DNA of 32,831 bases from a bacterium (GTDB lineage: Bacteria; Electryoneota; AABM5-125-24; Hatepunaeales; Hatepunaeaceae), in contig JALGVR010000026.1 in the NCBI GenBank assembly GCA_025774605.1, positions 1-32,831 of the forward strand, read 5' to 3'. The translations under genes were made by a program, and so were the position numbers. Shown here in pieces: positions 1,976 through 27,100 of this stretch. The notes beneath the pieces are model-generated. The model made no database searches, had not been told where the DNA came from, and saw only the letters and a list, made by a program, of their open reading frames with translations. Position 1 is the first letter of the stretch; every line of letters starts with the position of its first letter.

Positions 1976-2510
1976 GCATGGTTTTTACAACTCCGCTCAA
2001 TCCGGCTCATTCGGCCGTCACATCGATAGCGGCACTGGGGTCTTTTGCGTGGATCGTCGGAAGGGCGGTCCGCTGTGAAGAAAGGGAAATTGCAGCTCCT
2101 GGGGTGCTGACCCCCAACGAGGCTATCATCTCGTGTCGCCGGACAGAGCTGTGTTAAAAAAACTACACAAATATAACTGAAATTGTTTGACAATTCTTTG
2201 AGTTACGCCGTTAAGAAACAGCTTCTTAAATTAATTCATAATTTCCCGGAATTTTTGCGACAGCAATCCGAGTTTTACTGTCATTTCCGTCGTATTATCT
2301 TTCAAGGTAACAGTTAACCTGGTTTGGTTGACGTTTTACTTGACCAAAACCGTGGAATATCCCGGTTCCGGTTGTTTGGAAAAGCTTTCCTGTTATTCAT
2401 TCAAGGCATTTTGGATTTTCAAGATTCAAGTCGTATATTCCAAGACGTTTTCAGATGCTCTTCTTAAATTTGCGCCTGATGAAAAAATACTCCATTTCCT
2501 GGGCTAAATC
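1976..2510. other. AT-rich intergenic stretch without a recognisable gene
   Basis: No convincing gene is seen. Small structures are present. A 5-bp stem with a 7-base loop lies at 2100-2116 (TGGGG/CCCCA); it could be a weak terminator for the aminopeptidase, but no T-run follows. A bulged inverted repeat (GGTAAC/GTTAACC) lies at 2306-2319. A second bulged inverted repeat lies at 2321-2351 (GGTTTGGT against ACCAAAACC). A TTGACA hexamer at 2187-2192 has no good -10 partner at the usual spacing. None of these is strong enough to name. Confidence 0.5.
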
Positions 2511-2517
2511 CTGCGCT

Positions 2518-2637
2518 GTCATTATCCCTGATGTTATTTCTTGCATTGCCATTATTTCTGAAGATATATCGCGCATTGTCATTATCTTTGAAGTCATATT
2601 TTGCGCTGTCATTGTCTTTGAAGTTATATCACGCATT
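2518..2637. repeat. Degenerate 30-bp tandem array (GTCATT-anchored)
   Basis: GTC/GCC followed by ATT recurs at exactly 30-base steps (2518, 2548, 2578, 2608, 2638). The units are AT-rich and diverged, but share the GTCATTATC-like start and a GCATT or GCGCT end. The period equals that of the GC-rich hairpin array at 2865-3000, which carries the complementary ATGAC anchor on the + strand. The two arrays may be decayed and fresh versions of one element in opposite orientations; this is inference. Confidence 0.7.
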
Positions 2638-2816
2638 GTCATTGTTTTTAATTGCATTGTCATTGTTTTTGATTGCATTGTCATTGTTTTTGATTGCATT
2701 GTCATTGTTTTTGATTGCATTGTCATTGTTTTTGATTGCATTGTCATTGTTTTGTTATATCACGCATTGTCATTGTTTTTAATTGCATTGTCATTGTTTT
2801 TGATTGCATTGTCATT
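2638..2816. repeat. 21-bp tandem array with a 131-bp segmental duplication
   Basis: The GTCATT anchor now recurs at 21-base steps (2638, 2659, 2680, 2701, 2722, 2743, then 2769, 2790, 2811). Most units are identical apart from one base, with core GTCATTGTTTTTGATTG. The 63 bases at 2623-2685 recur exactly at 2754-2816, an offset of 131, which points to recent slippage or unequal exchange. The periods 21 and 30 are multiples of three, which keeps spurious frames open on both strands. Confidence 0.9.
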
Positions 2817-2833
2817 CCTGCGAAGGCAGGAAT
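2814..2833. repeat. Palindromic GTCATTCC-type repeat head
   Basis: A perfect 8-bp stem (ATTCCTGC and GCAGGAAT) encloses the loop GAAG. GTC precedes it and CC follows, giving the layout of the dispersed inverted repeats found in many bacteria, such as the Neisseria dRS3-like elements. It is fused directly to the 3' end of the 21-bp array. The likeness to dRS3 is from memory of the family consensus. Confidence 0.8.
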
Positions 2834-2864
2834 CCACTGTTTACAGGCAGAAATCTCTCTGGAT

Positions 2865-3004
2865 ACCTGCCTTCGCAGGTATGACAAGCCGGTTACCTGT
2901 ATCCGCAGGTATGACAAGCCGGTTACCTGTATCCGCAGGTATGACAATTTGGATACCTGCCTTCGCAGGTATGACAAGCCGGATACCTGTATCCGCAGGT
3001 ATGA
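2865..3004. repeat. Five 30-bp hairpin units
   Basis: Five 16-base inverted repeats sit at 2865, 2895, 2925, 2955 and 2985, exactly 30 apart, joined by an ATGACAAGCCGGTT-like spacer. Units 1 and 4 read ACCTGCCTTCGCAGGT, a perfect 6-bp stem with a CTTC loop. Units 2, 3 and 5 read ACCTGTATCCGCAGGT, where the sixth pair becomes T-G and the loop ATCC. The array ends about 140 bases before the giant gene, so it could lie in its leader or promoter region. Confidence 0.9.
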
Positions 3005-3130
3005 CACCTGGCGGACTTTTTCAACAGGCGCCAATTATAGAACAGACTTGTTTGGATAAATTGCACTGAAGGGCTTGCCTGCTTCACCACACATCGATTC
3101 ACAGCCTTTCATTCTTTCCATAAACTCCTG

Positions 3131-3142: not shown

Positions 3143-6100
3143 ATGAAAAGAATCCAGCGCAATACTGTTTTCTCTAAAGGTCTTTTGTGCATTTTGACTG
3201 TTTTTTTTATTACCGCAGGTGCGCAAAGCCAATCAGCTCAGAAACCATCGACGGTAAAGAGATACGACCAACGGCCGGATCGCGTTCAGAGTGACCCATT
3301 AACCGTCCACTCAAGCAATGTGGAACTGGAGGATAATCACCCGATCGAACCCTTTGACGCTGACGACGACCCGCCGGTTCTGGTTGTGGAGCCGGATACT
3401 GTTGAATCCGACCTTGATATACCGGACAGCGAAGCGCATACGTTGACGGTCACCAACGACGGCGTTGAAGACCTGACCTTCGAGATCGAACACGAGATCA
3501 CCGGTGAACCGGGTCGTGACGCCGTCTCGCGCTCGATGCGCAGGATGAATGATCAGACGGGGCCTCGGCGCGATGATGCGGGCGATGTGCTGGAAACCTT
3601 CGATGTCCCATACAATTCGAGCACCGGCCTGGCTTGGGACGGCGGCCTTATGTGGGGCTGTTTCTATTCAAATGACCGTTTGATCGCACTTGATCCCGAC
3701 AACGGTGAAGTTGTTCATAACCTGGCAATTCACGACATGCCCCTGGGAATGACGTTCGACGGCGAGCTGCTGTGGATCGGCGGTTGGAGCGGCAACCGGG
3801 TAAGTCTGTACGACCTTGACGGCGACCTCGTCGACCAGGTGGACATGCCGTTCAGCCAGATCAAGGGCATTGCCTTTGACGGCGACCGGTACCTGCTGAT
3901 GAACTCCGGAGGGGACAGCCGGATGCACGTGATTTCACTGGAAAGCCGCGAACAGGTCACTGCCTTCGACTTTGCCGGCGCCATGGGAAACGCGGATATC
4001 TGGGCGATCGTCTGGGTTCCCGAACATCCGGACGGTCAGCTCTGGGGATTGGATCGCGGGCACGTTTACCAGGCTCATGTGGACGACGAATGGAACTGCG
4101 AAGCGGTTCAGAATTTCGGTTGCGGCGCCGACTTCCAATATGCCTTGTGTCACGACGGCGACGACCTCTGGCACGGCATGTGGGGCGAGCAGAGATGGTA
4201 TGTTTTCGACGACGGTGTTGAGGAGTTGCACTGGCTGACATACGATCCGACCGGAGGAACGCTCGGAACAGATGAATCGATGGATGTTGAAGTAACGTTG
4301 ATCTCCGAGGGATTGATCGAAGGTACGTATGAAGCCGACCTGATATTCTGGTCAAATGATCCGGAACTCGAGGAGGGATTCCGCGTTCCCGTAACGTTGA
4401 ACACCACCGGCGAAGCGCAGATCGACGCCGAATGGGTGCCGGGATTCGGCGGCGAACCGCCGACCGTCGATTTCAACGAAGAATTTGATCCTGACCTGTA
4501 TACAGGCACACCTTACTCGATACCGATCACGATAGAGAACACCGGTACAGCAGTGCTTGAAATCTCGGACATCGCTTCCGACGAGGAGGGCGACCCGGTC
4601 TTCACCGCCGAGCCGACCGAGCTGACGATTCCGCCCGGTGAGGAGCGGAACGTCGATTTCATCTTTGAAGCTCCCGAAGACATGGTTATCCATAACAACG
4701 ACGCCGACGAGGAGGACCGGGAATACCATGTCCCGCTTCATGCCGATGCCGGCGACCCGCCGGTTGCGGCGATCAACCCGGATGAGATCCTTGACGAACT
4801 GGCTACGGGTGAAGCGTCTCATCATGATATTACTGTTGAAAACGAGGGGGATGCCCAACTTCGCTTTACAACCGACATTGTGGTTACAGACGAACCGGAA
4901 CGGGACGCTCGTCCGCGAACACTGCGCGCTGTCGACCGCGGCGCGGGACCGGCTCGCGATCGAAGCGGCGGTCCGCAGGAGGGTGATCCGGACGAATATA
5001 TTTTCCTCGACAGTAACGAGCCGAACGGTCCGGTGTTCAACTGGATCGATGTCAGCGGCTTCGAGGGTGTCATCAACATCAACATGGGCGACGACACCAA
5101 CCACGGACCATACGATCTCGGCTTTGACTTTCCCTTTTACGGCAACAGTTACGGAACCGTCCGCATCTGTTCCAACGGCTGGGCTTCTTTTACCAGCTCT
5201 TCCACCGATTACGGCTGGGGCGGGGCATTGCCCGGCGGCAGCGATCCCGAAAACCTCCTCGCGGTCTGTTTCACGGATTTCTACCCGCCGGACGGCGGCA
5301 GTTACATGTACTGGGCGGGCGACGACATGGCTGTCATGACCTGGGAAAATGTTCCTCATATAGACGATGACAGCTGGATCTGGAGTTTCCAGATTATCCT
5401 CACCCCTGACGGCTTCATCAAGTACCAATATGCCCGGACCGATGAGGATTCCGACGATGACGTCCTGGTCGGCTGCCAGAACTCGGATCGCGATCTGGGG
5501 TTAACCGTGTGTGTCGGTGAAGACGGCTATCTGGTGGACGAATTAGCCGTCGGCATAGGTCCGTCGAGCGCCTGGTTCAACTGGATCACCCTCGATCCGA
5601 CCGAAGGAGCGATCGATCCCGGCGGCGATCCGGCCGTGCTGGACTTGACTTTGGATGCCTACGGTTGTGATGAAGGCGACTACGTGGCGGAAGTTCATTT
5701 CTTGAACAACGATCCGCAGTCGCCTGACGTGGTGGTCGACGTGACCATGAATGTCGCCGGCGCGCCGGATATAAGGCTCGAATGGGAAATCGGTTATGTT
5801 GACGATCCCTTTGAAGACAGCGTTCTTGACTGGAACTCGTACTTTGATCCGAACTTCTTCACCGGCTATGGATACGATATTCCGGTAACCGTTTCGAACG
5901 TGGGTTCAACCACCCTTGAAATCTCCGATGTCTCGTCCACCGAAGAGGGCGATCCTCGCTTTACCTCCGACGTGGAAGACCCGCTCCAGATAGCGCCGGG
6001 GGAGGAAGGCGTCGTCACGCTGACGTTTTATTCCGAGGACGCCGAGGAGTACGGGGGCGAAGGCAACGAGCTCGATATGATCTTCCACTCCAACGATCCG

Positions 6101-9100
6101 CTGGACGGAGAGATCTCCGTGCCCATACATGCGCACCCGATACTTCCGCCGCTACTGCTCGTTGAACCGGATGGGATCGAGACCGAGATCGCCATTCCCG
6201 GGAGCGAACAGCACACCCTGACCGCCACCAACGACGGTGATTCGGAACTGGATATCATCATCGACCACGAGATCCTGCGGGAACCCGGCCGCGATAGCCG
6301 GGCGCGCATCATGCGCCGCACCAGCGCCCCAGGACCGCGCCGGGATGACGCCGGCGATGTGCTTTACACCGCCCAGTCCCCGATCGGCGTCAACCAGTAT
6401 AAGAATCTCGGCTATGACGCGGACAACAACTGGATGTGGCATAACCAGTACTTCGCACCGAAACGCATGGTGGCGCTCGATCTCGACGACGACATGAACA
6501 TCATCGCCGACTGGAACATAAACGTCGACAATCCGATGGATATCGCCGTCTACAACGGCACGATCTACGTAATGACACTGTGGGAGGCGTTCTTAAGCCG
6601 ATTTGACGCTGACGGTCAGAACCTCGGCAACCTTGCCCTGAATCTGGACGGCGGCAACGCCAACGGCGTGGCGGTGGACACCGGGGAAGAGCTGTTGGTC
6701 GTCGGTGGGACGAACAACAACCTCTACGTCTTCGACTTTGACGGCAACCGCGTCGCCCGGCTCGGCAACGGCAACTTAAGCTCGAGGGTGGAAAACAGAA
6801 CCTGGCGCTCGATCGAATGGGTATCGCAACACACGGACGGACAACTGTGGGTGAACACAAATGGAAGAGTCTATCAGGTCGCCGTCGATACGGACAGCTG
6901 GGAGTTCATCGGCGACCAGGCCGTGCTGAGCTTCCCGACCCACACCAGCACCGACTGGGACGGGTTGGCGCATGACGGTCTTGACCTGTGGATCTGCGCC
7001 TACAACAGCACCACCATCAACATATACGATGACGGCATGGCTGAAATGTACTGGTTGATGTACGAGCCGGATGAGGGAACACTCGAACCAGACGCACAGA
7101 TGGATGTCGATGTCACGCTCAACACGGAGAGTCTGATCGAAGGAACGTACGAAGCCGATCTGATCTTCCACTCGAACGATCCGCAATACGCCGAGGAGGA
7201 TCTCCGCGTCAACGTGCTGCTGACCACGGTCGGCGAAGCGCAGATCGACGCCGAATGGGTGCCGGGATTCGGCGGCGAACCGCCGACCGTCGATTTCAAC
7301 GAAGAATTTGACCCCGACCTGTTTACCGGCGTGGAATACCGCATTCCGGTGACCATAATGAACCTCGGCACGGCCGCGCTTGAGGTTTCGGACATCGCTT
7401 CCGACGAGGAGGGCGACCCGGTCTTCACCGCCGAGCCGACCGAGCTGACGATTCCGCCCGGTGAGGAGCGGAACGTCGATTTCATCTTTGAAGCTCCCGA
7501 AGCGGACATGGTTATCCATAACAACGACGGCGACGAGGAGGACCGGGAATACCATATTCCGGTATTCGCGGACGCGAGTAATCCTCCGCTGGTGACGGTC
7601 GATCCGGACGAGGTGAGCGACGAGCTGTTCACCGGCGAGGCGGCTCATCATGACGTTTCGGTCGGCAACGACGGTGAATCGCAACTGCGGTTCACGACGG
7701 ATATTGAGATCACCGCCGAACCCGGACGAGACGCGGCGGCGCGATCCCTGCGCGACATCTCACCTCAGAATGGTCCCCGCCGCGATCAGCCGGAGGGCTC
7801 CTTCGCCCTGTTCCAGCAGACAAATCCATGGAGCTTCAACCTGGAGACGATCTTTTCCGGCGTTGAGGGACTCGACTACGATCGTTACCAGGACCTCGGC
7901 GCGCTTGACGGGGGGGTAAGTCTGAACGATTATTCCGCCATCTGGGTTGCCAACTTCCAGAGCGATCAGTGGAACACCGTCTATAACGAACATCTTGCCC
8001 AGGTCGAGGGCTTCGTTTCAGAAGGCGGAGCCTATTACATGTGCACCGGCACGAATAACTGGGGCGTGGCGCCAGTTCATCCCGGTGGCGTCATTCGTGA
8101 ACGGGGCGGCAACTCCAACGTCGGTTTCACTGTAGTACCGCCGGATGAATGCCTGCTCTTCGAGCTGATGGAGTGGGAGGAGGGCACACAGTTGACGGGT
8201 AACTCCTTCAACCATGCCCACTACCCCGAAAACCGCTTTGCGGACAACGAAGATGTCGGCGAATACCAGATCCTCGTTGAAACCGACATCGGTTTACCGG
8301 TTGTAGTCAGATATGAATACGGCGCCGGCAACTGTGTCGTGTCCGGCACCACCGACGGCTTCCTGCACAACAATCCTGGATCCTATATCTGGGGTCGGAC
8401 CGGTGAAGCGATGCTCTACTACCTCAGCTCACTGGCCGGCAACCGTTGGATCTCCGTTGAGCCTGAAGACGGCCAGATCGCGCCGGGCGGCGATCCCGTC
8501 CTACTCGATCTTACCCTCGACGCTCACGGTCTCGATGAGGGCGGTTATGAAGCCGAGCTGCACATCCTGTCCAATGACCCGGCTGCGCCCGATGCGGTCG
8601 TGAATGTCACACTCAGCGTGGTCGGCGCGCCGGATCTGACGCTCGAATGGGAGCTCGGTTACGTTGAGGATCCCTTTGAGGAGAGCATCCTCGACTGGAA
8701 CCTCTATTACAATCCGGACCTCTTCACCGGTCACGAGTATAATATCCCCGTCACGTTAAAAAACGAGGGAGTGAATACGCTGGAGGTCTCCGAGGTGTCC
8801 TCAACCGAGGAGGGCGAACCCCGCTTCACCTCCGACCTCGAAGGGACGATCGAGATCGCCCCGGGTGAGGAGTCGGTCGTCACCCTGACCTTCCTCTCGG
8901 ATGATGCCGGTGAGTATCCGAGCGGTGAGGACGAGCTGTTCATGGTCTTTCACTCGAACGACCCACTGGAGGAGGAGTTGTCAGTGCCGGTGCATGCGCT
9001 GGTCACCGCTCCGCCCGATATCGCGGTCGATCCCGGGGAGATCGAGGACGATCTGTTGACCTTTGAAGCCGCCAATCATCTCATCACCATCGACAACTCC

Positions 9101-12100
9101 GGCGGTTCCGTGCTGCGGCTCGAAACCGGGATCGAGTGGATTGAGGGTGAGGGGGGCGGCCGGGATCTCGCCGCCCGTCAACTCGCCCCTGTCCGCGGTC
9201 CACACAACCCCCGGCGTGATGAAGCGGGCGACTTGATCCACCAGTTTACGCCGCCGAACGGTCGGGGGGGCTTTTACAACGCCGGGCTTGCGTGGGATAA
9301 TGTCAACGAATGGATGTGGATTACCGAATGGAGCAGCCCTTACCGGGTGGTGGCTGTCGATCCCAGCGACGACTACAGCTCGCCGCGATCCTTCAACGCC
9401 GCCGGTGGCTGCATGGGCGCCGGCTGGTACGACGGCGTTCTATATATCGTCAACTGGTCAAACTGGCATCTCCTCCGCTACGACACCGAGGGCAACCGAC
9501 TCGACAACCTGGACATCGGGATCCAGCCGACGGCTTGCACGGTCAGCGCCGAAAATGGCTGGCTGTTCGCTATGAACGCCGCAGGCAATCGAGACATACA
9601 CGTATTCGATATCAACAATGATTTCCAACAGATCGGCATTATTGATAATTACCGCGGCATGATCAATAACTACTGGTCGCGCAGTTTACTGTGGGTCGAC
9701 CAGCACCCCGGCGGACAGCTCTGGCTCAACACCCAGCGCGGCGCACAGAACAACAACGGCAACACCGCCTGGCAGATTTCGGTCGACACCGGTGATTGGA
9801 GCGCTGTTGAGCAGGTGCAGAGCATCGACACGTGGACGGAAGGCAGCGGGTATGAATGGGATGGTCTCGGGCACGACGGTCACAACCTCTGGTCAACGCA
9901 GTACGGTTCCGCCGACATCCGCGTGATCGACGACGGTGTTGCCGAGTATTATTGGTTGATCTTGTGGGAAGGTGATATCGGAGAACAGAATCCCGAAGAC
10001 TGGGTCATGGTCCGGGGGCAGTACGAGATTGAGCCGGACGATCAAATGCTCATGACCGCCCGTCTGGATGCATCAACCATCGAACGCGGCGATTACCAGG
10101 CGATTATTCACTACCTCAGCAACGATCCGAACGAGGGCGAAGACGACCTTGAATTGCCGGTTCTGCTGCACGTAACAGACGCCCAGGACATCGAAGTCGC
10201 CTGGGAGGCGGAATACGGCTACCCCGACCTGCTCGACTGGAACCTGGCCTACGATAACGTACTCGTCGCCCAGCCCTATGAGATGACGATCACTGTCGAG
10301 AACGCCAGCATGGACGTTTCGGACCTGGTCGTCAGCGATATTGTTTCAGACGACGAGGACTTCAGCGTCGATCCGACTGAATTCACCCTCGAACCGGGAG
10401 CATCCCAGGAGGTGATCATCACCTTCGAAGCGGATGCCGACGCCGCAGGCGAATACGACGCCCTGCTTACGATCTACTCCGACGATCCCGACGAGGACGA
10501 GTGGCCGATCCCCCTGCATGCCGCGGCGGTGTATGACCTGCAGATTGCGCCCGCGCCCGAATCGATCGCCTCGGAACTGATGACCGGCGAGACCGACGAG
10601 ATAACATTGAACCTGTCAAACGAGAGCGGCGATCTCCGCCGTTTCCGGATCGACCGTGAAATCCTGAGCGAACCGGAGCGCGATGATCAGCAGCGTGCGC
10701 TGCGCTGCATCGACAGGTCTCGGGGACCGGGCCGTGACGCGGCGGGCGATCTGGTCGATGCCTTCGACGAACCGGTCGGCGGCATCAACCGATACAAGGG
10801 TCTTATCTGGGACGCCGACAACGACTGGATGTGGATATCGCATTACTCAAGTCCCTACCAGTGCTGGCCCGTCGATCCAGACAACGATTACCAGCGGGTC
10901 GATGGCCAGGGATGGAACGGATTTGCAGGACAGATGTCCGGAGTCATGGCTGACAATGAACTCTATATCGTCACCTTCAGCGGCGGGTGGTACGTATACC
11001 GCTACAGCCGGCAGGGGCAGAATCTCGGTCGCGTGAATACCCCGTTCCAGGTCAACGGCGTCGCCTACAGCGCTGAAATGGAGCTGATGTTCTTCATGAA
11101 CAGCCAGGACAATATGAACATTCACGTCTACGAGTTCAACGGAGAAGGCAGTTTGGGCGGGCGCGTCGGGATCATCAGCAACTACCGCCAGCTGTTCAAC
11201 AACTGGTGGAGCCGCAGCATGTGCTGGGTGGACAAGCACCCCGACGGTCAACTCTGGGTTAACACTCAAGCGTCCGGTGGCGGAGGTCAGGGCAACACGG
11301 TTCACCAGATCCTGATCGATACGGACGACTGGAGCGCGGCTCTGCGGGTGCAGAACTTCGACACGTATGTCGGTGTCAACGGTCAGCCGTGGGACGGCAT
11401 CGCTCACGACGGCTACAATCTCTGGACGTCGAGCTACGCGTCCGAGGAAATACGCATCTACGACGACGGTGTTTTCGAGAAGAATTGGATTTCATACGAT
11501 CCGACCGAGGGTGAGCTCCAGGGTGGCGAGGACATGGATGTAACCGTTACACTTGACGCCTCAGGGCTTCATGGAGGCAGGTACGAAGCAGAGTTGCGGA
11601 TATCTTCGCCCGACCCGGATTTCAGCGCATTCACGGTGCCGGTTACATTAGACGTGACCGCCGCGGCTGACATCGCCGTCCGCTGGCTCGATCAATACGG
11701 TTATCCGGATGTTGTCGACTGGAACGCCCAGGAGGCGTACGGCGACCAGGTCTTCAGCGGACTCTCTTACGAGCTTGTGGTGACCGTGGAGAACAGCGGT
11801 GTGCTGCCGCTCGACGTCGATGAGATATCCTCCGACCTGGAAATCTTCAGCGTCGATCCGGCGGTGATTGAAGCGCTTGACCCGGACGAGGAGGTCGACA
11901 TCGTCGTTACCCTCGAAGCCGATGAAGCCGGCGACTACGATGCCGTTCTCAGGTTCGTCAGCAACTCCGAAGCGAACCCGGTTGTGGAGGCGGCTCTTCA
12001 TGCGGATGTATTGGCGCCGCCGACGATTCAACTCGATCCGGAAAGCGTGGAAACGACACTGAACTTTGGTGACAAGGAGGATTATACCGTTACAGTGAGC

Positions 12101-15100
12101 AACGCCGGTGGAGCGGATCTGATCTGGGAAACCGATATTGATGTCGCCGGTGAGCCGGAGCGCGACGCCGGCGCACGGACGCTTCGGAGTACCAAACGCG
12201 CCGTCGGTCCCCGCCGCGACGAGCCCGGCGACCTGATTGCGGAGTTCGTCGGGCCCAACCAGCAGAATATATACTGTTCGCCGGTCGGCTGGGATCCCGA
12301 CGACGAGGTGATGTTCTTCACCAAGTACAACAACAGCCAGATCTCCGTGTGGAGACACGACAACTACGAGGATTTCGAGCAGGTGCGCCAATTCGGCACG
12401 CCGAACCCGATGGACGGCGGCTGGTACGAGGGCCTGCTCTACATCTGCACATTGAACAACACCCAGGTTCTGCGGCGGTTCGACGTCGAAGGCAACCAGG
12501 TCGGTGAAATCGGTATGGGCTTCACCGTTTACGGCGTTGCATTTGACAGCGAAGAGGGTTTGATGTTCGCCCGCAACCAGAACGCCGGCGGCGCCATCCA
12601 GGTTTACGAGATGGACGGAAACGACCGCGGCGGGCAGATCGGGACGATCAATAACTGGTCTCAGTTCAACGGCAACAACGTCAACGTGTATAACGTCGAG
12701 TGGGTTCCCGCGCACACGGACGGTCAGCTCTGGATGGTGAATAACCAAACCCACAACATCTACGAGATCGCTGTCGACACGGACGAATGGCAGGCGACCG
12801 GCGCGGTTCAGAACTTCCCCGCCAACATCACGCAGCCGTGGGATGCCATAACCCATGACGGGGAAAACATGTGGGTCGGCGGCTGGGGAGCCGCCAACAT
12901 CCGCATCTACGACGACGGCGTCGCCGAGATGCGCTGGATTGCTGTTGATCCGAGGGAGGGTATTACCGAACCGGAGGGTTCAACCGAAGTCACCCTGACG
13001 CTGGACGCCGGCAATCTTGCCGCCGGAGACTACAGCGCCGATCTGCACTTTATATCGAACGATCCCGAGAGCGGCGATGTGATACTGAATGTCACGTTGC
13101 ACATTCATGAGCTGAGGGATATTGTCCTGACGCCCGACCCGCTTGATTTCGGCGAAGTCTTCATCGACGAATCGACCGATCTGCCGATCAATGTCGCCAA
13201 CGCGGGGAACGCAGACCTGACGGTGTCGGAAATGGCAGTTGAAGGGGACTGGTTCAGCGTCGATTTCCCGGGCGAATTCGCGCTTGAACCCGGAGATGAT
13301 CTGGACGTGATGCTGACCTTCGCGCCCGAAGAGGGCGGTCTCTTCGAGGGAACCTTGAGCGTTACATCGGACGCCACCGGCGAGGATGTGGTGACGGTCG
13401 ACCTGATCGGCAGGAGCCGCGAACGGATGCCGAATATCTACGTGGAGCCGGTTTCACTCGACTTCGGTGATGTTTTCGTCGGTGCCGCCGAGGATTTGAT
13501 CTTCAGCATCGGTAATGACGGCGATGGTCCCCTCAGGGTGACCGACATCGGTGTCGAAGGCGATTACCTGAGCGTCGATTTCGAGGGTGAATTCACCGTC
13601 GACCCGGGCGAAAGTCACGATGTGACCGCGACCTTCGCACCGGAGGCAACCGGAGAGGTCAACGGCTTGATCACCATCGTCTCGCTCTACGAGGAGCAGG
13701 AGGACGAGTATTACGTCGAAGCCTTCGGCGTCGGCATTGAGCCGCCGGAGATCATGGTTGCGCCGACCGATGTCGCCGTCAGCCTGGAATACGGGGAGAG
13801 CGAAGATCATGTTCTTGAGATCATCAACCAGGGCGAATCCGACCTGGTCTGGGATTCGGAACTCGACATAACCCAGCAGCCCGGACGGGACCGCCGCGTC
13901 GCGCGTCAAAGCCGCCGGGTCCGCCGCGCGGGACCGGCGAGGGGGAGGCCGGGACCCACGATTAACGTCCCGAGCGAAATTGTCCAGTTGGCGGTGAAAA
14001 ACGGCAATGCAACCGCCGCCGAGACAGCCGAATGGGATTTATACGTTGCTGAAATTGAGCGGGACGCGGGTCAACCTCGCCGGGACAGGCGCGGCGCGGC
14101 GGACGATTACGGCTACGAGTGGCGCGACAACGAGGAGGATGACGGGCCCGACTATGAATGGATCGACATCACGCAGGGACAGGGCCAGCGCCTCAACGCC
14201 TGGGATGACTGGAACAGCGGCGTACTCGAACTCGGCTGGGACTTCCCCTGGTACGACCAGCAGTATGATGCGATACGTGTATGCTCCAACGGCTGGGTAA
14301 CCCTCGACCGCAATTACGGCGGCAGAGACATCTACCCGCCCCGGCCGCCGAGCTCGAACAATCCCAACGCCCTGTTCCTGGTCAACAACTACGATCTGAA
14401 CCCGGGCGCCGGAGGTTCGATATACTTCTGGTCGAACGACGAAGACCTGGCGGTCGTCAGTTGGATCGAGGTGCCGCGCTACGGCGATCAACAGGTGCGG
14501 TCGACCTTCCAGATCGTGATGTTCGGCAACGGCATGGTCAAGTACCAGTACGGCTTTCAGCAGAACGTCGACGGCTCGCAGAGCAATGTCGGCTACGAGG
14601 ATCCCGGCGGCGAAATGGGGGCAAGCATTATCTACCGCGAGGCTGACCGCATCCACGAAGGATTGGCTGTCGGCATCGGCACGGAGAACATGCTCTGTCC
14701 CTGGCTGTCGTGGCAACCGGTCGACGGTGTGGTTGCCCCCGCGGATACGATGGACGTCACCTTGACGCTGGAAGCCGCCGATCTTGCCGCGGGCGTTTAC
14801 GCGGCGGACCTGCACATTCTCTCCAACGATCCCCAGTCGCCAGATGTCGAGGTGCATATCGAGCTGACGATCGAGGAGTTGATCGACATCGCCGTATCTC
14901 CGGCTGAGCTTGACTTTGAAGAGATCCTTGTGGACACCGAGAGGGACCTGATCCTCACCATCATCAACGACGGAAACGTTGATCTCACGGTCTCCAGCAT
15001 CTCGGTCGACAATTACGACAACTTCAGCACGGACTTTGAGGGGGAATTCAACGTTGAACGACGCGGAGAGACCGATGTAACGGTCACGTTCGCGCCTCAT

Positions 15101-18100
15101 GACGAGGGCGAGTTCTCCGGCCGGCTGACCGTCACGTCGAACGATCCGGATGAGGGTGAGCTGCCCGTCGACCTGATCGGCAGAGCCCGCTATCCGGTTC
15201 CCGACATGACCGTCATCCCCGACAGTCTCGACTTCGGCGTGGTTTTCGTCGGACAGAGCAGCGATCTGACGCTGACCATCGGCAACATGGGCGAGGACGA
15301 CCTGACCGTGTCGGATGTAAGCGTCGAAGGCGATTACCTGAGTACCGACTTCGAGGAGCAGTTCGTCGTTGCGCCGGCTGACAGCCATATCGTAACCGTA
15401 ACGTTTGCTCCGGAGGATGAGATCACGTTAGTGGGAACCGTAACCGTGATATCGAACGATCCCCAATGGGACGACGGTTTCCCGGTAAGCGTCAGCGGCT
15501 CCAGCTTCAATCCGCCGCTGATGGTTCTGGACGACGACCCGATCCGAATGGACCTGGCCTACGGCGAGAGCGGTGAAGACCGCGCCGCGCTGGCGAATGA
15601 CGGCGGCTATGATCTGGTCTGGGATACGGAGCTGGAGATTATCCGCGAGCCCGTTCCCGGCAGGGAGTGGGTGTCCTGGGAGCCTCAGGAGGGTGAAATT
15701 GAACCCGGCGCCGACGTGGATATAGTCGTTACATTCGACACCGACAGCCTCGAGGAGGGGCTCTATGACGCGAACCTCCATGTCCTGTCCAATGATCCCG
15801 AAAACCTCGACCGGACAATCTACGTCCGGCTTAACGTCACCGAAGTGCCGGATATCGCGTTCTCGCCCGATATTCTGGACTTCGGCGAAGTCGAGGTCGG
15901 GCAAAGCGATGACATCCTGTTGACTGTATACAACCGGGGCGGCGGTGATCTGGTTATCTCCGACATGACAGTGGGGGGAGACAACTTCAGCGTGGACTTC
16001 GAGTGGGAACTCACCATCGCGGCGGGAGACAGCGAGGAGATCACAACGTCATTTGCGCCGTTGCGGCTGGGCGAGATAAATGATACGTTGACCATATCCT
16101 CCAACGATCCCGGCGAAGGGCAGGCGGAGATACCCATGACAGGCACGGGGCTGGGGGCGGTGATCGCGGTGACGCCCGATGCGCTCAACTTCGGCGAGAC
16201 CTTCGTCGGGGAAGAGGAAGAGCTGACCCTCCGCGTACACAACCTGGGCAACAGCGACCTGATCGTGTCCGATATCACGGTTGCCGGCGACTATTTCGAC
16301 GTCGATTTCGAGCACGGTTTCAGCGTCGCACCCGGAGACAGCCAGGACGTGCCGGTCACCTTCGCGCCCGAAGAGTCGGGTGAACAGCGGGGGATCGTAA
16401 CCGTTGTCAGCAACGACCCGTTCCGCCGGGAGGACTTACGGCTCCAAACAGACGGCATCGGCGTCGAACCGCCGCTGCTCAGCGTCGATCCCGACGCCAT
16501 TGAGACCCACCTGACCTTTGACGAACAGCATGATTATCCGATCACCCTCTCCAACGAAGGCGGCTCCAGCCTGATCTGGTCGACTGAATTCGATCTGATC
16601 CGTGAACCCGGTCGGTTTATGGGGCGGGACTTCGGCGCGCGCGCGCTGCGCCGCATCGGTCCGGTGCGGGCGATTGAGGCTCCCGGCGCCGTCATTCAGC
16701 GCGCCGTCAAGTCGGGAGCGGCGTCAAATCTCGATCTTATGAAGTGGAACAATTATCTGAGACGGCTGGAGCAGGACGGCAACCGGCCGCGCCGCGACCG
16801 CCGCAGCTCGCCCGACGAGTTCGGCTACTTCTGGATCGACAGCGACGAGTACGGCGATCCCGACTATGAATGGATCGACATCACCCATACCGGACAGCGT
16901 CTCGACGCCGGCGATGACTGGATCAGCGACATCCAGTGGCTGAGGTGGAACTTCCCCTGGTACGAACACGACTACGGCACGATCCGTATCGATTCCGACG
17001 GCTGGCTCACCTTCGACCGCGATTACAATGAAAGCCCTTCGGTCCTGCCGCGGCCGCCCAACGAGGGACAGCCCAACCCGACGCTGCTGGTCAACAACTT
17101 CGATCTCGATCCGTCCGCCGCCGGTGCGGTCTATTTCTGGACAAACCGCGAGGACATGGCGGTCATCAGTTGGATCGACGTCCCGATGTACCATAACGAA
17201 CATGTGGCGACGACGTTCCAGGCAATACTGTACGGAAGCGGGATCGTCAAGTACCAGTTCGGACCGCAGCGGCATTACGACGGTTCACTCAGCAACGTGG
17301 GTTACGAGAGCCATGAAGGGCGGTTCGGTTCGAGCATAATTTACCGCGAAGCCGGCCGCATCCACGAAGGACTGGCGATAGCCATTATCCCGTCGGGCGG
17401 ATGGGGCGAAGGCTGGATTACGCTCGATCCCGCCGGAGGCTTGATCGAGCCGCACGACGAGCAGGTGATGACGGTCTCCCTGGACGCCGGTCTCATGCAG
17501 GAGGGCGACTACGCCGCCGAACTGCACATCCTGTCTAACGACCTGGAGAACAGTGATTTCGTCGTGGACATCGCGGTGACCGTCGGCAACGTGCCGGATA
17601 TCGCGGTTGCCCCCGAAAGTCTTGATTTCGGCGAGGTCGAGGTCGACAGAAACGCCCGTCGGAATTTCACCATCAGCAACGTCGGCGACGAAGACCTGAC
17701 CGTCTCGAATATCCATGTCGAAGGCGATGATTTCAGCGTCGAGTTCGACGGCGAATTTATCGTCAGACCCGATGAAGAGAGGGATGTATCGGTTGTCTTC
17801 TCGCCGGAGAGCATCGGCGAGATCGAAGCTTTCGCGGTTATCCTTTCGGACGACCCGAACGAGGAGGAAAGCTACGTCGCACTGTCGGGCATCGGTCTCG
17901 GCGAGGGTTGGTTCCGCTACGACGACGGGGAGCCCGAGGGCATCACATCTGACCTGCGCTATTATTATTCCCGCACGACCTTCACCTCGGCGGGGACGTT
18001 CGAACTGCGCTCGGTCCGCGTCATGCCGTTCAACGACGGACCGAACCCCAACGCGCCGTGTTATGTCTATGTTTTCACTGAAGACGAAGAGCACAACCTC

Positions 18101-21100
18101 GATGATGTGATATGGGGGACAAGGATTATTTCGCTTGATCCCTGGGATGAACGGGACTTTGAAGCCAACTGGATCGAACTGCGGCTTCCAGAGGAGCGGT
18201 GGAGCAGATTCGGCCCGGGAGAGCATTTCAGCATCATATACGGACCGGCTCCGGGAGGTCCCTACCGCCAGGAGGAGGGCGCCGGCTGGTGGAACCTGTT
18301 CGATGTCGAATCGCAGAGCGGTCGCAGTTTCGTGTCCACGGCGCTGACGAGCGACCATCGCCGCTGGGATGACGGCGGGCTGGAGGGCGATCTCTTCATC
18401 CGCGCCGGCGGTGAGTATATCTATACCGAGCCGAACCAGCCGCCTGAATGGACCGACACTCCAGAACCGGTCATCGCCGAGGACGGAGACCTGATCGAGT
18501 TCACCGTCGCCGGCAGTGACCCCGACGAGGATGATGAACTCGAGATCCGGTACTATTCCTTAAACCTGCCCAACGCGGTTGAGTTCACCGACAACGGCGA
18601 CGGCAGCGGAACCTTCAGCTGGCCGATCGCCTACAATACGTCGGGCAGTTACACGGCGCGTTTCACGCTGACCGACGGCGACCTCGAAGATGTCGCCTAC
18701 GTCCTCATCCGGGTGAACGACGTCAACCATCCGCCGGTATGGGTTGATGCGCCCGACACGGTGGAGGTCGACGAGGGCGGTGAACTCGAGTTGATGGTCG
18801 CCGCCACCGATCCCGACCGTGATCGGATCCGGATTCGATTCAGTTCGGACGACCTGCCCGAGGATGTTGATTTCACCGATTTCGGCTGGGGCAGAGCCGG
18901 CCTGACCTGGGAGACGGATTTCGAAGATGCGGGGGAGTATTCCGCAACATTCGCCGTCTCCGACGGGGAGAGCGAAACAGACACCTCGTTGACGATCATC
19001 GTCAACGAGGTCAACCGCGCACCGGTGTGGACGGATTATCCGGCTCACCGTCTGGTCGTCGGTTACATTGACCAGGAGGTCGCCTTCGACGTGGCGGCGG
19101 TGGACCCGGAGGACGGGGAGGTCGAGCTCAGTTGGGAATACGGCGGAGAACCTCCTCACGAGCCCGAGGTTGAAGTGACGATCGACGGGGGAAGGGCACA
19201 CTTCGCCATGAGCCCGGACAGGTTCGAACACGGCGACTACCTCGTGAGGTTCAACGCCTCGGACGGCGAAGCTGAATCCGACCTCGAAATCACGGTTCGG
19301 GTCTATCCCTATCATTACCTCTCCATGAACACCGGCAACGCACACATAATTCGTCTCGACCGCGTAATGCTCTTCGGCTACGACCTGATGGATGAGGGGG
19401 ACGGAGACGACGGCGGCGGCCAGCTGGAAGCCGAGCCCAGCTATGACGAGATCGGCGTGTTGACTCCGGACGGAATCGTGGCGGGGCAATATCGTTTCAA
19501 CGACCCCGACCAGCATGGGACAATGATCGCCTGGGGCGACATACGTTATACCGGGGAGATCGAGGGCTTCAGGTACCGGGAGGATTTCAGGTTCGTATAC
19601 TGGGATCATGACGAGGGCGTCGAGTACCCGGTGCGGTGCGAGATCCGCGCCGGCGCGACCAGATGGCGCTGGAACGGTTTCACGATTGTGCGCCTGTTCA
19701 TCGGACCTGACCTGGACGCCGATGCCTATCAACACGACTTCGGTGAGGCGTTCGTCGATCAGCAGGTCGCCTGGGACGTTACCTTCACATCCACCGGTTC
19801 AGAAGCGGCTGAAGGCGTTGAACTTGAAATCGAGGGCGAAGGGTTCAGCGTTGATGACAGCGGCCCGGTCGACTTGGACATCGACGAGGAATGGACGGTC
19901 ACGGTAACGTTTGCACCCTGGAGCGTCGAGGATTATGCCGGACGCCTCACCGCGCACAGCGACGAACTGGAGTTCCTCGCCGTCGATCTGACCGGTACCG
20001 GCATACACGTCGATCATTTCGAATTCGACATCACCGGCAGGCGTCACCTGATCGAGGTGCTGCAAGCCGCGCTCGACGGAGAACCGCTCGCCGACGACGA
20101 CGAGATAGGCGTCTTCACGCCGGACGGACTCTGCGCCGGCGCGGCGGTCGTCAGCGGCGAAGGCCCCTATATGCTCTCCGCCTGGGGCGATGACCCGGAC
20201 ACCGAACCTATGGACGGTTTCCGCGAGGATGAGGGATTTTTCTTCAGATTCTGGGACGCGGACGCCGAACGTGAATATACGGCCTCGGCGGTGTTCTTCG
20301 GCGGACTGTATTCCTGGCGGGAGAACGCATATTCACAGGTGATCCTCCAGGCCGGTGACAGGCATTTTGACTGGATCGAGACCGAATATGCCCACCACCT
20401 GCAGGTGGACGGCGTTGATCTTGGCGAGATCGGTGAGCGCGAAGCCGAATGGCTGGAAGCCGGCGACGAGATCGCCGTGGTCACCAGGCGCGGACTGGTC
20501 GCCGGAGGCTATAGCGTCACCGGAGACGAGGGACCGTACGAGTTCGACGCTTTCGGAGACGATCCGCAGACCGGGAATACCATTGAGGGTTTCCTTGAAG
20601 GGGAACCGATATATTTCCGGATCTGGAGAGGCGCCGACGAGAGAGAATACCTGGCTCGAGCCGAATGGGACGACGGGAATGTCACCTGGACACCAGGCGG
20701 CCGAGACAGGTTGAGGCTGCGTGTGGCGGGGGACAACCGCACACCTCTCTGGAGACCGGTCGGACGGATGACCGGCCGGGAGAACGACGAGCTCTCCTTC
20801 ACTGTTGTGGCGATCGATCCCAACGAAGACCCGGTAAGCCTCAAGCTTGACCAGACCGATCTTCCGCCGGGCATCAGCTTCACCGAAACCGGCGACGGCG
20901 AGGGTCTTTTCACATGGACGCCCGGTTACGATGAGGCGGGACGGTACAGCGCTCGATTTGACGCGTATGACGGCTGGGGGTTTTCCGGTATCGAAGTGTG
21001 GATATTCATCCGGAACGTCAACCGTCCGCCGACCCTGGCGGATATCGGCGACATTGAAATCATGGAAGGTGAACGGTTCGCGCTGATACTGGAATTGGCC

Positions 21101-24100
21101 CGGGAGGAACCGGACGGCGACCGGGTGGCGTTCTCCGCTGAAGATCTGCCCTACGGCGCTTCGCTTGAGGACAACCTGTTCCACTGGACGCCGAACTTCG
21201 ACCAGGCGGGCGATTACGATGTGACCTTCCGCGTCACCGACTTCGGACAGCCGCCGCTCTCCGACGAGGAAACCGTCACCATCACAGTATATAATTCAAA
21301 CCATCCGCCGTACTGGCGTGCGGTTCCGCCGATCACCGCACGCGAGGGAATGCGCGTGCAGTTCCCGCTACATGCCTATGACCGGGATGAATTGGGCGGG
21401 AGAGGTGAGGGAGACCTGGAGCTCACCTCCGGCGACCTGCCGGAAGGCGCCGGGTTCAGAGACCTCGGAGACGGCTCCGGGGCGTTCCTCTGGCAGACCG
21501 ACCGCCGCTCCGCCGGCGAGTATCATCCGTACTTCGTTGCCTTCGACGGCGAACTGCGGGATACGCTGGTGGTGGACATCACAATCAGAAACGCCAACCG
21601 GCCGCCAAGACTGGAGCACGTTGAGGACCAGACGGTTATGGTCGGCGATACGCTTGACTTGCCGATCCACGCCACCGACAGCGATCCGGGTGACCAGGAG
21701 GATCTCGAGCTTGCCGCGGGCAACCTGCCGGAAGGCGCCGAGTTTGAGGATCTTGGTGAGGGCGAAGGCAGGCTGCACTGGATACCGTCGTTTGACGAAC
21801 GGGGCGTTTATCCGGACGTGATCTTTACCGCCACCGATCCGCTTGGCGCCAGCGACCGCGAAACGGTTGTGCTGACGGCGCGCGTGATCGACGGCGATCC
21901 CCCGCAGTTCACCGATGTATATCCGGACGTTGACGACACCGTCCGATCGAACCTTCCCTGCATCCACGCTAATATAGTCGATGAACTGAGCGAAGTCGTC
22001 GCTGTCCGGTTCTCATTCGACAACACTGATTATGATGATTTTGAATATGACCGTGAGAGTGGTGAATTCGAGTGGTGGCTGGATGAACATGTATCGCAGG
22101 GCGAACATCACTTCATGATTCGCGCCGTTGACACATACCGCAACACCACTGTTTACACCGTCCGGTATATCGTCGACAGCAACGCGGGCGTCATCGAGAT
22201 CGATGATCTCCCGGCATACACGAGGCATTCACTGATCTATATCGGCGGATCGTGCGAACCGCTGCTGTACGTCCAGTTGTGGCGGGATGATGAAATGCTG
22301 CAGCAGGGTCGAGCCAATCCCGCCGGCAGATTCCTGTTCCGCGACATCGAGCTGAATATAACGAATACATTCACGGTGACCGGTTATGATCTAATGAACA
22401 ACGCCGCCACGCCGGACTGGGCTAATGTAATGCTTGATGTTTTTCCGCCGGAAGTTCAGATGGTCTCACCGCTCGAGTACAGTTCGTCGAATACCCCTGA
22501 GATCATCGTCCATGTTGAGGATTACGGCGTGGGCATCAACATCGAAGGGGGAGGTTTCGAGCGACAGGGGATTGTTCTGTTCCTGGACAACGAGCGGATC
22601 TTCGACTGGGATTACGAAGACGGCCTGCTTCATTACCAGGTGGAGGAAGCGCTTGACGAGGGTGAGCATCTCGTCACTGTGGTCGCCGTCGACCGACTGG
22701 GGAACATGCGGGACGACCCCTTCTGGCATATCTTCCTGGTTGACAGCGAGCCGCCTTCGGCCGAGCACCTGTTCTTCGGGGAGCATGTATATGCCATCGG
22801 CAACCGCAGGCCTCCGATCACCATCCCCGTCTTCGACCCGCTTCCCTCCAGCGGCATCGAATCCGATTCCATCCGGTTGATACTGGATGATGAGGAGCTC
22901 GACTTCACCTGGCACGAGGTGGACAAGGCGGTAACCTATGAGTTCCCTGAGGATGATACGCTTGATCTCGGTGAACACGACCTCTACTTCACGGTCTGGG
23001 ATCAAGCCGGCAACAGCTTCGAAGCTTCGGGGCAGTTCATTGTCGAGGACGTGGAGGACGGCGATCCGCCCTTCTTTGACAACTTCTTCCCGCCGCCGTT
23101 CGGCGTAGCCGGCTGGGGCGGGGACGAAGGCGGTGATGCGGTCATGCATCGCGCCGATATCACCGGCGACACGGTCTCCTTCGTCATCGGCGACATCGAT
23201 GCCGGCGTGGACTGGGAATCAGTCCGCATGCAGATCATCGCCCTCAACGATCCTGATGATCCCGATGATAACGACACGACGGAGATATTCTGGGATGACA
23301 TGGTCGCCCGCGTACCACCCGGGCGGATGATGGCGCCTATGCCGCACCGGCAGCCGGGCGTTGAGCTGGCGCCCGAGGAGATGCCGGGGCTCGAGGAGGG
23401 GATAAACCAGGTGAACGTATTCGGCGCCGACGACGACGGCAACGACGGCGAAGACGGATGGGAGTTCTTCTACGACGTCCACAACCCCGATCCGCCCGAG
23501 CTCGACGCACCTGAATCGGCGTACGTGAGCGAGACCGAAGTAACAGTCGCCGGAACCACGGGCAGCGACGATCCGGAATACGAGGAGGGATACGAAAACA
23601 ATCCGACCCTGAGAATATACGTCAACGGTGAAATGGTCGTTGAAGCCGACGTGGGCTACGATTCCGAATTCAGCGTCGAGGAAGTTCCGCTCGCCGAAGG
23701 TGAAAACGTCATCGAGGCGACGATCGTCGACGGCGCCGACAACGAGTCCGATCTCAGCAACCAGATTGAGCTGTTCGTAGATGTAACCGACCCCGAGATC
23801 GACGGCTTTGAGGCGACCGGCGGACCTCACCTGGCGACCGGGACCCCTGAATTCACCGCCGCGCTGATCGATGTTGACAGCGGGATCGATGCCGACAATA
23901 TCAGTCTGACAATAGGTGAGCTCGCGGTGCCGGCGGAGTATAACGAGGAGGAAGAGCTGATGACCGCCCAGGTGAGCGGGGATGACGCGCTGGAGAGCGG
24001 GGATTACACCGCGCGTCTCGTCGTCCTTGACCTGGCGGGCAATTCGGACACGTCATATTACGAGTTCGACGTGGACCTGAGTGCCGTCGCCCCCCCCGAA

Positions 24101-27100
24101 ATACTGACCTTCAATTACTATACGAGCATCAGCCGCATAAACCTGAGCGGTGAGGGCCAGGTCGGCACCGATATAGTAGTATTCCTGAACGACGAGGAGA
24201 TCAGCAGGTTCAGCCTCGCCGATTCGGCACGGTTCGTGTTCGAATACACGGCTCAGGGTTTGCCGGATACTTCTTTTGTTGACCTGACGGCTGTCAATCC
24301 CGCTGGAACCGAGAGCGAGCATACCGAGGCGGAGACGCTGGTCGTCGACAATGATCCGCCCACATACGCGGGCAGTGATCCTGGTGACGGTGTCATTGTC
24401 GATCTTGAAGACCTGGAGCAGGTTCGCGTGTTCGTCTCCGACCCGATTTCCGGAGTTGAACCCGACAGCCTGACGTTGCGGTTGCGGGGTGAACCGTTCG
24501 AGTTCGAACTCACTGAAACCGACAGCGGTTACTGGCTAACGGTCGATGTCAGCGAGGAGGAATTTGATGAGGATGAAGCAGTCGAGGTAATGGTCGGGAG
24601 TTATGACCGGTCTCTGCCGCCAAACGAGGGAGAAACCGTATGGGAGTTCGTCACCTCCAGGAGTCACCCGCCGGTGGTGGATCTGCCCGACACCAGCTTC
24701 AACGAGGACGAACAACTGACACTCGATCTCAGCGGCTTCATAACCGATGACGACAACTCCTTTGATGAACTGGACTTATCCGAAGAGCTCCTCCAGGGTG
24801 GGGACAACGCCGAACTTCAGTACGACGCGGAGGAAGGCTTCCTGCACCTGACTGCGGACGAGAACTGGTTCGGTGACCTGCAGCTTGCCGTGGAAGCTGT
24901 CGATCCGGATGATCAGTCCGACGCGGACACCGCCATGGTCGATGTGCTGGCGGTGAACGATCCGCCTGTAATCGGACGCATACCCGATGATACGACCGCT
25001 TATGTCGACAGGGAGTTCACCATGGAAGTTACCGCCGAGGACATCGATCCCGACGACGAACTGACCTTCAGCGACAACAGCGATCTGTTCGAGATCAGCC
25101 AAGACGGTGAAATCTCCTGGACGCCGACCGAGGAGGAGCTCGGCCAGCACGTAATCGAAATTTACGTAACCGACAGCGGAGACGCCGGCGATACGGCAAT
25201 GTTCCGCCTGTTCGTCGCCGCCGAGAACGAGCCGATCGAACTGGTCGATCCGATCGACGACGTGACGCTGAACGAAGATCACGAACCGGTTGTAATCACC
25301 GACCTGGACGATGTCTTCAATGATCCCGAAGGCGCCGAAATCAACTACAGCATGGAATACGGGGAAGGGATCACGATCGAAATCGACCAGGAGACGAATG
25401 AGGCCGAGCTCCGGCTCGACAACGACTTCTTCGGTGAGGTCGAGGTGATCGTAACCGCCGACGATCTGGCTGGGTCGCAGCTCGCCGACACCTTTATGGT
25501 CGATGTTTCACCGGTGAACGATCCGCCCCGCCAGGTCGGACTGCTGCCCTATGAAGTCATGACGCGGGAGAACCTGGGCAGGTTGGAGATCGCCGGTCTG
25601 GACACGGTGTTCATCGACGTCGATGAGGGTGAGATCGAGTACGACTGGGAGGGCGGTGAACACCTGGGCGTGGACATCGACGAAGAGCTGGTGTTGAGCA
25701 TAACCCCCGATGAAGGATTCCAGGGCGAGGAGACGTTCACGCTGATCGTGGAGGATGGGATAGAAGACGAAGGGCGCACCCCGCGCAGGTTCGCCTTCGA
25801 GGGCTGGCGGTTCGATCCGGGGCATAATCGCAACGGGCTCGATCCGCGCCGGGATGAAGCCACCCGGATCGAAATCACCGTCGAAGTCAGGCGAATAAAC
25901 CACCCGCCCGTCGCCGCGGTCGATGATCCTTATGTAATTGATATGGAAGAGGATCAGGATCCGCTGGTCATCGATCCTCCGATTGACGAGATGTTCACTG
26001 ATCCCGACCCTGATGAGATACTCGAAGTCACCTGGGAGGAGATCGAGGGGCCGATCGAGCTGTCGCTCGACGAGGCGGAGGAGCAGATCATCGCCACCAT
26101 CGTCGAGGAGAACTGGAACGGTGAATTCGACTACCCGATCGTCTGCCGGGATTACGAGGGCGAGGAGGCTGAACTGACGCTTGCCTTCCACGTCGCATCG
26201 GTCAATGATCCTCCGGAGGTCGTCGGTCAGATCGGCGACGTTGAAGTTGACGAGGACGCCGATCCGCGCCGCGCGGACATCGTCGATCTCGATGACGTAT
26301 TCTCCGACATCGATGACGATGATCTCACGTACGGCGTCGCGGACGCGCCGGAGATGCTGAACATCGCGGTCGACGAACAGGATAACATGTTGTACATCGA
26401 CCCCGAGGACAACTACAACATCCCCGACGGCGTTGAGATCACGGTCTTCGCCGATGACGGTCACGATGGTCGGGTAATGGTCGGATTCCGCACCGCGCGG
26501 AACACACCGGCCGAAGCGGTCTCGCATGATGCCGGTCCCGTACGCCGGTTGAGATCCATAAGTCAACCGGGGACAGTCGGTCGGTCATCACGGTCGGCAA
26601 GGCGGTTGCGCACCACTTCAGACGCCTGGCGGCTGCCTGAAACCAACGATCGACCTTCAATCAACGCATCCGGCGCGCCGCGCCGTGACGATGCGGCGGA
26701 AGCCTCGTTCACGCTGACGATAGCTGCCGTAAATGATCCGCCCTACTGGCTCGAATGGGAGGATCCGATGGTGGATGAAGGGCAACTCTGCGAGCTGATC
26801 TTAACCGCCGACGATATTGACCTTCACTTCGAGGGTGACGAGTTGACCGCGACTGTGTTCGATGACGACGGGCTCTTCGACCGCGGCGCTGAATTCACGG
26901 CTAACGGCGACAATACATTTACGTTCAGCTGGGAGACCGGTTACGAGGACGCGGGGACCTATCATCCGGTGTTCGATGTGGAGGATCAGCAGGGGGCTGC
27001 CGACCGGTTGACGGCTGAAATCGCGGTCGACAACGTCAACCGCGCACCCGTCTGGGACGACATTCCCGATACGGTTGAGGTCGACGAAGCCGCGGAACTG

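Follow-up and report, generated by a model that had tools for sequence, protein, structure and literature searches.

The 32,831-nucleotide stretch analysed here (the window) is one entire contig, JALGVR010000026.1 (assembly GCA_025774605.1), from a 2.83-Mb genome bin, and it carries a gene for a protein of 8904 amino acids (aa). Ten domains of this giant protein are immunoglobulin-like (Ig) sandwiches of the ASH/BACON type. In nine of the ten, a disordered arginine-rich joint and a domain of 190-250 aa break the sandwich once its fourth strand is complete, and the scaffold resumes at a W-x3-P-x2-G strand; the interruption point, or socket, of unit 9 is empty. We propose that the protein is a giant fibre of the type IX secretion system (T9SS) in which the Ig socket repeatedly carries exchangeable larger heads, most likely ligand-binding, and we give this reading a probability of about 0.72.

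The split scaffold

The array of sockets begins with the first N-half at position 3371 and ends with the last C-half at around 17584. The N-halves are about 47 residues long. Their starts precede those of the C-halves by 275-320 residues in the nine filled units and by 52 residues in unit 9; the inserts are roughly twice the size of their host. The motif W[IVL]xxxPxxG occurs nine times in the whole protein, each time at a socket joint (expected 0.23, maximum 3 in 2000 shuffles), and seven units contain the joint core R[DE]..R.[LM]R (expected 0.04, maximum 2 in 1000 shuffles). A preliminary description of the window had listed ten scaffolds with inserts in the order propeller, nidogen, propeller, GATase-like (glutamine amidotransferase-like), propeller, propeller, propeller, nidogen, none, nidogen. 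Profiles of the half-scaffolds found all ten where it had placed them, and the order was correct. Its statement that the resume motif and the arginine-rich joint are present in every unit needs two corrections: the C-half of unit 5 is irregular ('YYWLILWEGDIGEQNPEDWVMV...EIEPDDQ') and does not fit the motif, and the empty unit 9 keeps only a remnant of the joint, 'REPVPGRE'.

Excised and joined, the scaffold halves match the Pfam HYDIN-type Ig domain PF22544 over residues 13 to 99, across the junction, with a best E-value of 6.5e-8 (33.2 bits). Four joined scaffolds score 30.9, 26.0, 33.2 and 33.1 bits against a cut-off of 25.5, and window units 4 and 9 fall under it at 23.3 and 19.5 bits. BACON_2 matches the joined scaffold from 4 to 82, again through the junction, and an uninterrupted relative gives the same Pfam matches as the joined halves. 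AlphaFold2 models, built from alignments that left out the separate empty copies from relatives, have a mean predicted local distance difference test score (pLDDT) of 83.3 and a predicted template modelling score (pTM) of 0.52 for units 3 and 4, and 81.3 and 0.42, respectively, for units 9 and 10. They place four strands before the gap and five after it in the filled units 3, 4 and 10 and in the contiguous unit 9; the joint is modelled at a pLDDT below 50, and the propeller is all-beta at 92-96. Foldseek searches with the models returned Cep192, 2qsv of P. gingivalis and the ASH arrays found in the central apparatus of cilia.

Couplings between the halves, calculated from 223 filled units, concentrate on the antiparallel strand bands B-E and C-F, as in an Ig sandwich. 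The B-E coupling is 0.95 compared with a mean of 0.19 and a maximum of 0.40 in 60 partner shuffles, and that for C-F is 0.31 compared with a shuffle maximum of 0.21; the shuffles ignore relatedness, and the antiparallel geometry carries more weight than the size of the couplings. As judged from these comparisons and models, the two halves, in empty and filled copies alike, are one Ig domain in which the insert is nested, as the preliminary description had supposed; neither of the outcomes that it had named as refutations, halves that fail to pack as one sandwich and an insert that is a plain serial domain, was seen.

The joint is mostly 20-35 residues long and modelled as disordered, with 22% arginine plus lysine compared with 4.8% over the whole, very acidic protein. 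It also takes added DNA. In locus L101 of a relative (G006:C325:6924-6983) it holds, in frame, two copies of a palindromic repeat that is present in about 100 copies in the G006 genome (reversed control 0), and joints in locus L099 hold other repeats. Such a slack joint on one side would free the insert from the usual need for close termini.

Occupants of the socket and their exchange

Taken alone, the inserts of the window match Pfam weakly: SGL at 6.8e-6 for unit 1, NIDO at 0.026 (15.0 bits, cut-off 25) for unit 8 and nothing for unit 4. Searches of whole units against Pfam and NCBIfam mostly gave no match for the inserts, and their identities were assigned through relatives and profiles of each family. 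Pizza6 and TRIM-NHL propellers are retrieved by the propeller profile (1e-7 to 1e-5), and the propeller model matches YncE and integrin propellers. The nidogen profile finds RemA (8gl6, 3.4e-5), and the socket insert of a distant relative reaches 22.4 bits (1.3e-4, cut-off 25) against NIDO (PF06119). The assignment of the unit 4 insert rests on a model of alternating strands and helices, putatively an alpha/beta fold, and on GATase-like relatives; inserts of other sockets match DUF4350 (9.7e-10) and ThuA (1e-4), and a profile search of the PDB with GATase-like inserts gave only chance nanobody matches. Loci L077 and L208 have GATase/ThuA-like inserts whose sequences resemble that of unit 4 little or not at all. 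The sequences suggest that this fold class entered the socket more than once.

Profiles of both halves were run over 60 regions drawn from the host genome and from eight related genomes in its family, the search for paired halves that the preliminary description had proposed. They recovered 194 units in 52 open reading frames (ORFs). The gap between the halves is bimodal (14 units at or below 100 aa, 179 of 101-350 aa and one longer). The occupants comprise 124 propellers, 30 nidogen-like domains, 23 GATase-like domains of the unit 4 type, one other GATase-like domain, one PA14 domain (4e-23; L093) and one LamG/ConA domain (3.2e-15; L099), in proportions that are biased because the regions were picked mainly by propeller matches. 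Sockets that are empty and lack the joint (window unit 9, L093, L099 and L109) lie at orthologous places, between two nidogen units. Others, in L087, L088, L090 and L092, are empty apart from the joint, which implies that the joint is part of the socket rather than of the insert. A subtilase (L252) considered as an insert was dropped, there being no N-half within 500 aa upstream. In Calditrichaeota co234_bin30, three loci (L143, L159 and L160) carry genes arranged in tandem, each coding for about 1170-1200 residues. Most of these have one propeller socket, at around residue 460, and the same socket occurs in many small proteins.

The socket extends beyond the family. Several families within the phylum have nidogen in it, as does another phylum; that other phylum also has a propeller in it (6e-19, 7e-20), and a further family has GATase-like folds. 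More distant genomes contribute MAM-like folds (InhA-like MAM 6.6e-13, DUF4350 9.7e-10), and plain empty scaffold copies in tandem also occur outside the family.

Within the giant gene, a block of two units has been duplicated to give units 1-2 and 3-4, with linkers 87% (units 1 and 3) and 66% (units 2 and 4) identical and scaffolds 61% identical in both pairs. Despite this, inserts 2 and 4 have different folds, nidogen-like and GATase-like, and inserts 1 and 3 share 33% identity, no more than any two propellers in the set. In the comparison of genera, the LamG unit of L099 and a propeller unit of L109 have scaffolds that are 78% identical, and both fall in one scaffold clade (support 94) with window unit 6 and propeller units of L093 and L090; the unit occupies the same position in the arrays of the window, L093, L099 and L109. 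The PA14 unit of L093 pairs with window unit 1, a propeller unit, with scaffolds 59% identical and support of 84. Similarity fades inside the joint, after its 'EPxRDxxxRxLR' start, and returns at the tryptophan of strand D. When insert classes are mapped on a scaffold tree of 191 units, the minimum number of class changes is 38, compared with 65 (59-69) with shuffled labels, indicating that inserts are partly inherited and often replaced; the figure is a raw count, relied upon together with the well-supported small clades (support 94-95). That the inserts of one socket have been exchanged, within the gene and between genera, is demonstrated at the level of sequence. The preliminary description had called them interchangeable and had seen three unrelated folds in one chain, and both statements hold.

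Secretion, function and competing explanations

The giant protein ends in a T9SS sorting domain (Por_Secre_tail), and SprA of the T9SS translocon is encoded in the same genome (3.6e-37; 0 of 14 control genomes), so that both marks of T9SS cargo are present; the domain-library search of the giant protein gave no RTX match. Once exported, the chain would first string together Ig domains that bear nine side heads, and a long Ig/cadherin-like stalk would come after them. Between strands C and D it would leave through the disordered joint, fold a larger independent domain and re-enter directly at strand D. The length of slack on one side would accommodate domains with differing end-to-end distances, and the inserted domain would project sideways from the string. 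Homologous stretches flanking the socket could support duplication of units and replacement of inserts, probably by recombination, and a single scaffold would thereby display a changing set of heads. By analogy with the RTX adhesins (PMC12077191), the heads would most likely bind ligands, such as glycans or proteins of particles or of other cells.

Several other explanations have to be weighed against this. If the inserts were serial domains among small independent ones, nothing would be split, and Pfam on the intact chain does mostly match C-halves alone. The joined halves, however, match a single Pfam domain through the junction, the covariation between them follows Ig strand pairing, and contiguous empty copies are found not only in the giant chain but also at 13 further sockets of the set and, arranged in tandem, in genome G017. 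This is a very improbable reading, rejected on the cross-junction matches and the covariation. It is also conceivable, though unlikely, that no exchange took place and that gene conversion homogenized scaffolds and linkers, causing old units to resemble recent duplicates. At the DNA level, identity between units 1 and 3 is 81.5% for the linkers and 51% for the inserts, as conversion of the scaffold only would also give, but within-gene conversion fails to explain orthologous sockets that hold LamG in one genus and a propeller in another (support 94). By either route, scaffold and insert recombine as separate parts.

The role of the joint and of the heads might likewise be different. Gingipain-type C25 proteases may cut the joint, leaving the heads nicked on one side or released, as in the haemagglutinin-adhesin domains of gingipains. 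The joints are rich in arginine and lysine and are modelled as disordered, and the host genome (2.8 Mb) has 20 matches to Peptidase_C25, 19 of them above the cut-off (e.g. L257 and L258). The C25 family also takes in the PorU sortase, however, and joints that vary, swell with repeats and are lost from some empty sockets behave like a mere spacer; we rate a processing site as improbable, and such cleavage would in any case be complementary to, and compatible with, the socket. Alternatively, the heads could be structural, joining fibres into a matrix or sheath or spacing the Ig stalk, with no outside ligand. Matrix assembly commonly involves propellers, nidogen and LamG domains, each chain has many heads, and the same heads recur across many proteins of the host genome. 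Recognition is nevertheless better suited by the exchange of folds at one socket and by sugar-binding types such as PA14 and LamG, and the split domains of RTX adhesins carry tested binding domains (PMC12077191); we thus consider structural heads to be the less probable option by some way.

Some observations weigh against exchangeable, ligand-binding heads. The scaffold tree is built from only about 105 columns. Stability is seen in the final three sockets (nidogen, empty, nidogen), where inserts are 57-64% identical between genera, above their scaffolds, and by these identities exchange is not uniform across sockets. The GATase-like inserts have no counterpart of the conserved nucleophilic cysteine of class I GATases, no cysteine being invariant among nine members, although heads that lack it would fit binding rather than catalysis.

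The window, known systems and significance

The features of the giant gene are collected below. Linker domains number one after each of units 1-6 and two after each of units 7-9.

Table 1. Coordinates of the giant gene and its parts in the window
Feature	Position	Strand	Basis
Giant gene, 8904 aa, complete ORF	3143..29857	+	N-terminal signal sequence judged by eye
Unit 1 N-half, strands A-C, from residue 77	3371..3511	+	
Unit 1 Arg-rich joint and beta-propeller insert	3512..4231	+	SGL 6.8e-6
Unit 1 C-half, strands D-G, from W364	4232..4402	+	
ASH-type linker domain(s) between sockets, example after unit 1	4403..4756	+	library matches, model
Unit 2 N-half, from residue 539	4757..4897	+	
Unit 2 joint and nidogen-like insert	4898..5581	+	nidogen profile
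Unit 2 C-half, from W814	5582..5755	+	
Unit 3 N-half, from residue 1002	6146..6286	+	strands modelled
Unit 3 joint (pLDDT below 50) and propeller insert	6287..7051	+	profile, AlphaFold2 model
Unit 3 C-half, from W1304	7052..7222	+	
Unit 4 N-half, from residue 1481	7583..7723	+	
Unit 4 joint and GATase-like alpha/beta insert	7724..8446	+	model, relatives
Unit 4 C-half, from W1769	8447..8620	+	
Unit 5 N-half, from residue 1957	9011..9151	+	
Unit 5 joint and propeller insert	9152..9952	+	
Unit 5 C-half, first strand irregular, from residue 2271	9953..10189	+	partial profile match 10025-10153
Unit 6 N-half, from residue 2463	10529..10675	+	
Unit 6 joint and propeller insert (LamG in orthologous socket of L099)	10676..11485	+	
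Unit 6 C-half, from W2782	11486..11656	+	
Unit 7 N-half, from residue 2959	12017..12157	+	
Unit 7 joint and propeller insert	12158..12934	+	
Unit 7 C-half, from W3265	12935..13105	+	
Unit 8 N-half, from residue 3534	13742..13882	+	
Unit 8 joint, helical stretch and nidogen-like insert	13883..14701	+	NIDO 0.026
Unit 8 C-half, from W3854	14702..14872	+	
Unit 9 (empty) N-half, from residue 4124	15512..15652	+	
Unit 9 empty socket, five residues VPGRE (likewise empty in three other genera)	15653..15667	+	
Unit 9 C-half, from W4176	15668..15838	+	
Unit 10 N-half, from residue 4443	16469..16609	+	
Unit 10 disordered joint, helix pair and nidogen-like insert	16610..17413	+	model
Unit 10 C-half, from W4758	17414..17584	+	
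C-terminal stalk without sockets: ASH, He_PIG, Big_9, cadherin-like and Big_13 Ig repeats	17585..29617	+	domain-library search
Por_Secre_tail (PF18962), T9SS C-terminal sorting domain	29618..29848	+	E 3.9e-9, 37.1 bits vs cut-off 27

Arginine-rich stretches that resemble the joint also lie inside Big_9 and cadherin-like domains of the stalk, at about 25745-25870, 26480-26605 and 28165-28290 (residues ~7536, 7781 and 8343). Directly upstream of the giant gene is an M1 aminopeptidase-like gene (14-1975) with a weak T9SS tail, and just before the start is an AT-rich region (2455-3069) with 21-base and 30-base tandem repeats and a 28-base inverted repeat; the ORF spanning it (P0003) was rejected as a gene, being translated tandem repeat. 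On the minus strand, 30314-32829 holds a subtilase (PF00082, 1.9e-49) and then an ORF with a weak T9SS tail, which look like one gene with a frameshift near 31453-31498, or else an assembly error. Elsewhere in the host genome, several contigs that bear C25 proteases also carry the scaffold C-half. The host phylum is Candidatus Electryoneota, with Candidatus Hatepunaea and Calditrichaeota AABM5.125.24 bins as relatives (PMC10439189).

The closest working analogue is provided by the RTX adhesins MpIBP, FrhA and AhLap, in which split Ig-like domains project tested ligand-binding domains off the fibre axis (PMC10865825, PMC12077191). Common to both systems are giant fibres, an Ig sandwich that is discontinuous in sequence and hosts a whole sideways domain, and several hosted folds, those of the RTX proteins being a PA14-type carbohydrate-binding module, a peptide-binding domain and an RTX roll. 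Several differences speak against membership. RTX adhesins use the type I secretion system (C-terminal RTX roll, type I signal) and the giant protein T9SS; the AhLap chain leaves after the first strand and that of the giant protein after the fourth, with five still to come; and AhLap has three ligand-binding domains, two of them from split Ig domains, compared with ten sockets. Sequence comparison gave no match between the RTX host Ig domains and the scaffold, and the available text mentions no empty copies, fold swaps between orthologues or arginine-rich joint. More generally, a survey of domain insertions found inserts smaller than their hosts in 77% of events, with medians of 115 and 199 aa (PMC13114784). 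The A1-B-A2 topology described there is shared, whereas here a host of about 105 aa carries the larger inserts behind a one-sided disordered joint.

In fold and sequence, the scaffold belongs with the ASH/HYDIN-type Ig domains (PF22544, PF15780), BACON_2 (PF19190) and bacterial 2qsv. The ASH, HYDIN and BACON_2 models describe uninterrupted domains, and the domain library has no model of a C-D loop that takes whole domains. The haemagglutinin-adhesin arrays of gingipain RgpA are also T9SS giants with repeated beta-sandwich domains and arginine-rich cleavable linkers. Their domains are serial, whereas those of the giant protein are nested, and a link through C25 proteases is possible. Literature searches on nidogen or propeller insertion into Ig domains, on BACON with nidogen and on Electryoneota giants found nothing relevant. 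The preliminary description thought the arrangement new. This must be tempered by the RTX precedent and by the spread of the socket through the family and into other bacterial families and phyla, but the demonstrated exchange of folds stands. New relative to RTX are the Ig family, the secretion system and the insertion point, together with more fold types and documented swapping.

How one small domain accepts many unrelated larger domains at one point can now be tested with natural material, for which matched pairs exist at orthologous positions, both of empty and filled copies and of the same socket with different folds. Such proteins are poorly annotated because the models in the libraries recognize just one half of the scaffold, and the socket supplies a rule for locating the heads of T9SS giants in uncultured bacteria of the Fibrobacteres-Chlorobi-Bacteroidetes group. 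The scaffold also offers a ready platform for the display of inserted domains. More tentatively, and at rather less than even odds, the C-D loop of the ASH/BACON-type Ig domain may be a general, old and widely shared bacterial socket for loading and replacing unrelated folds, in which case the Electryoneota family f1 would represent a large, recombination-fed system that renews surface recognition.

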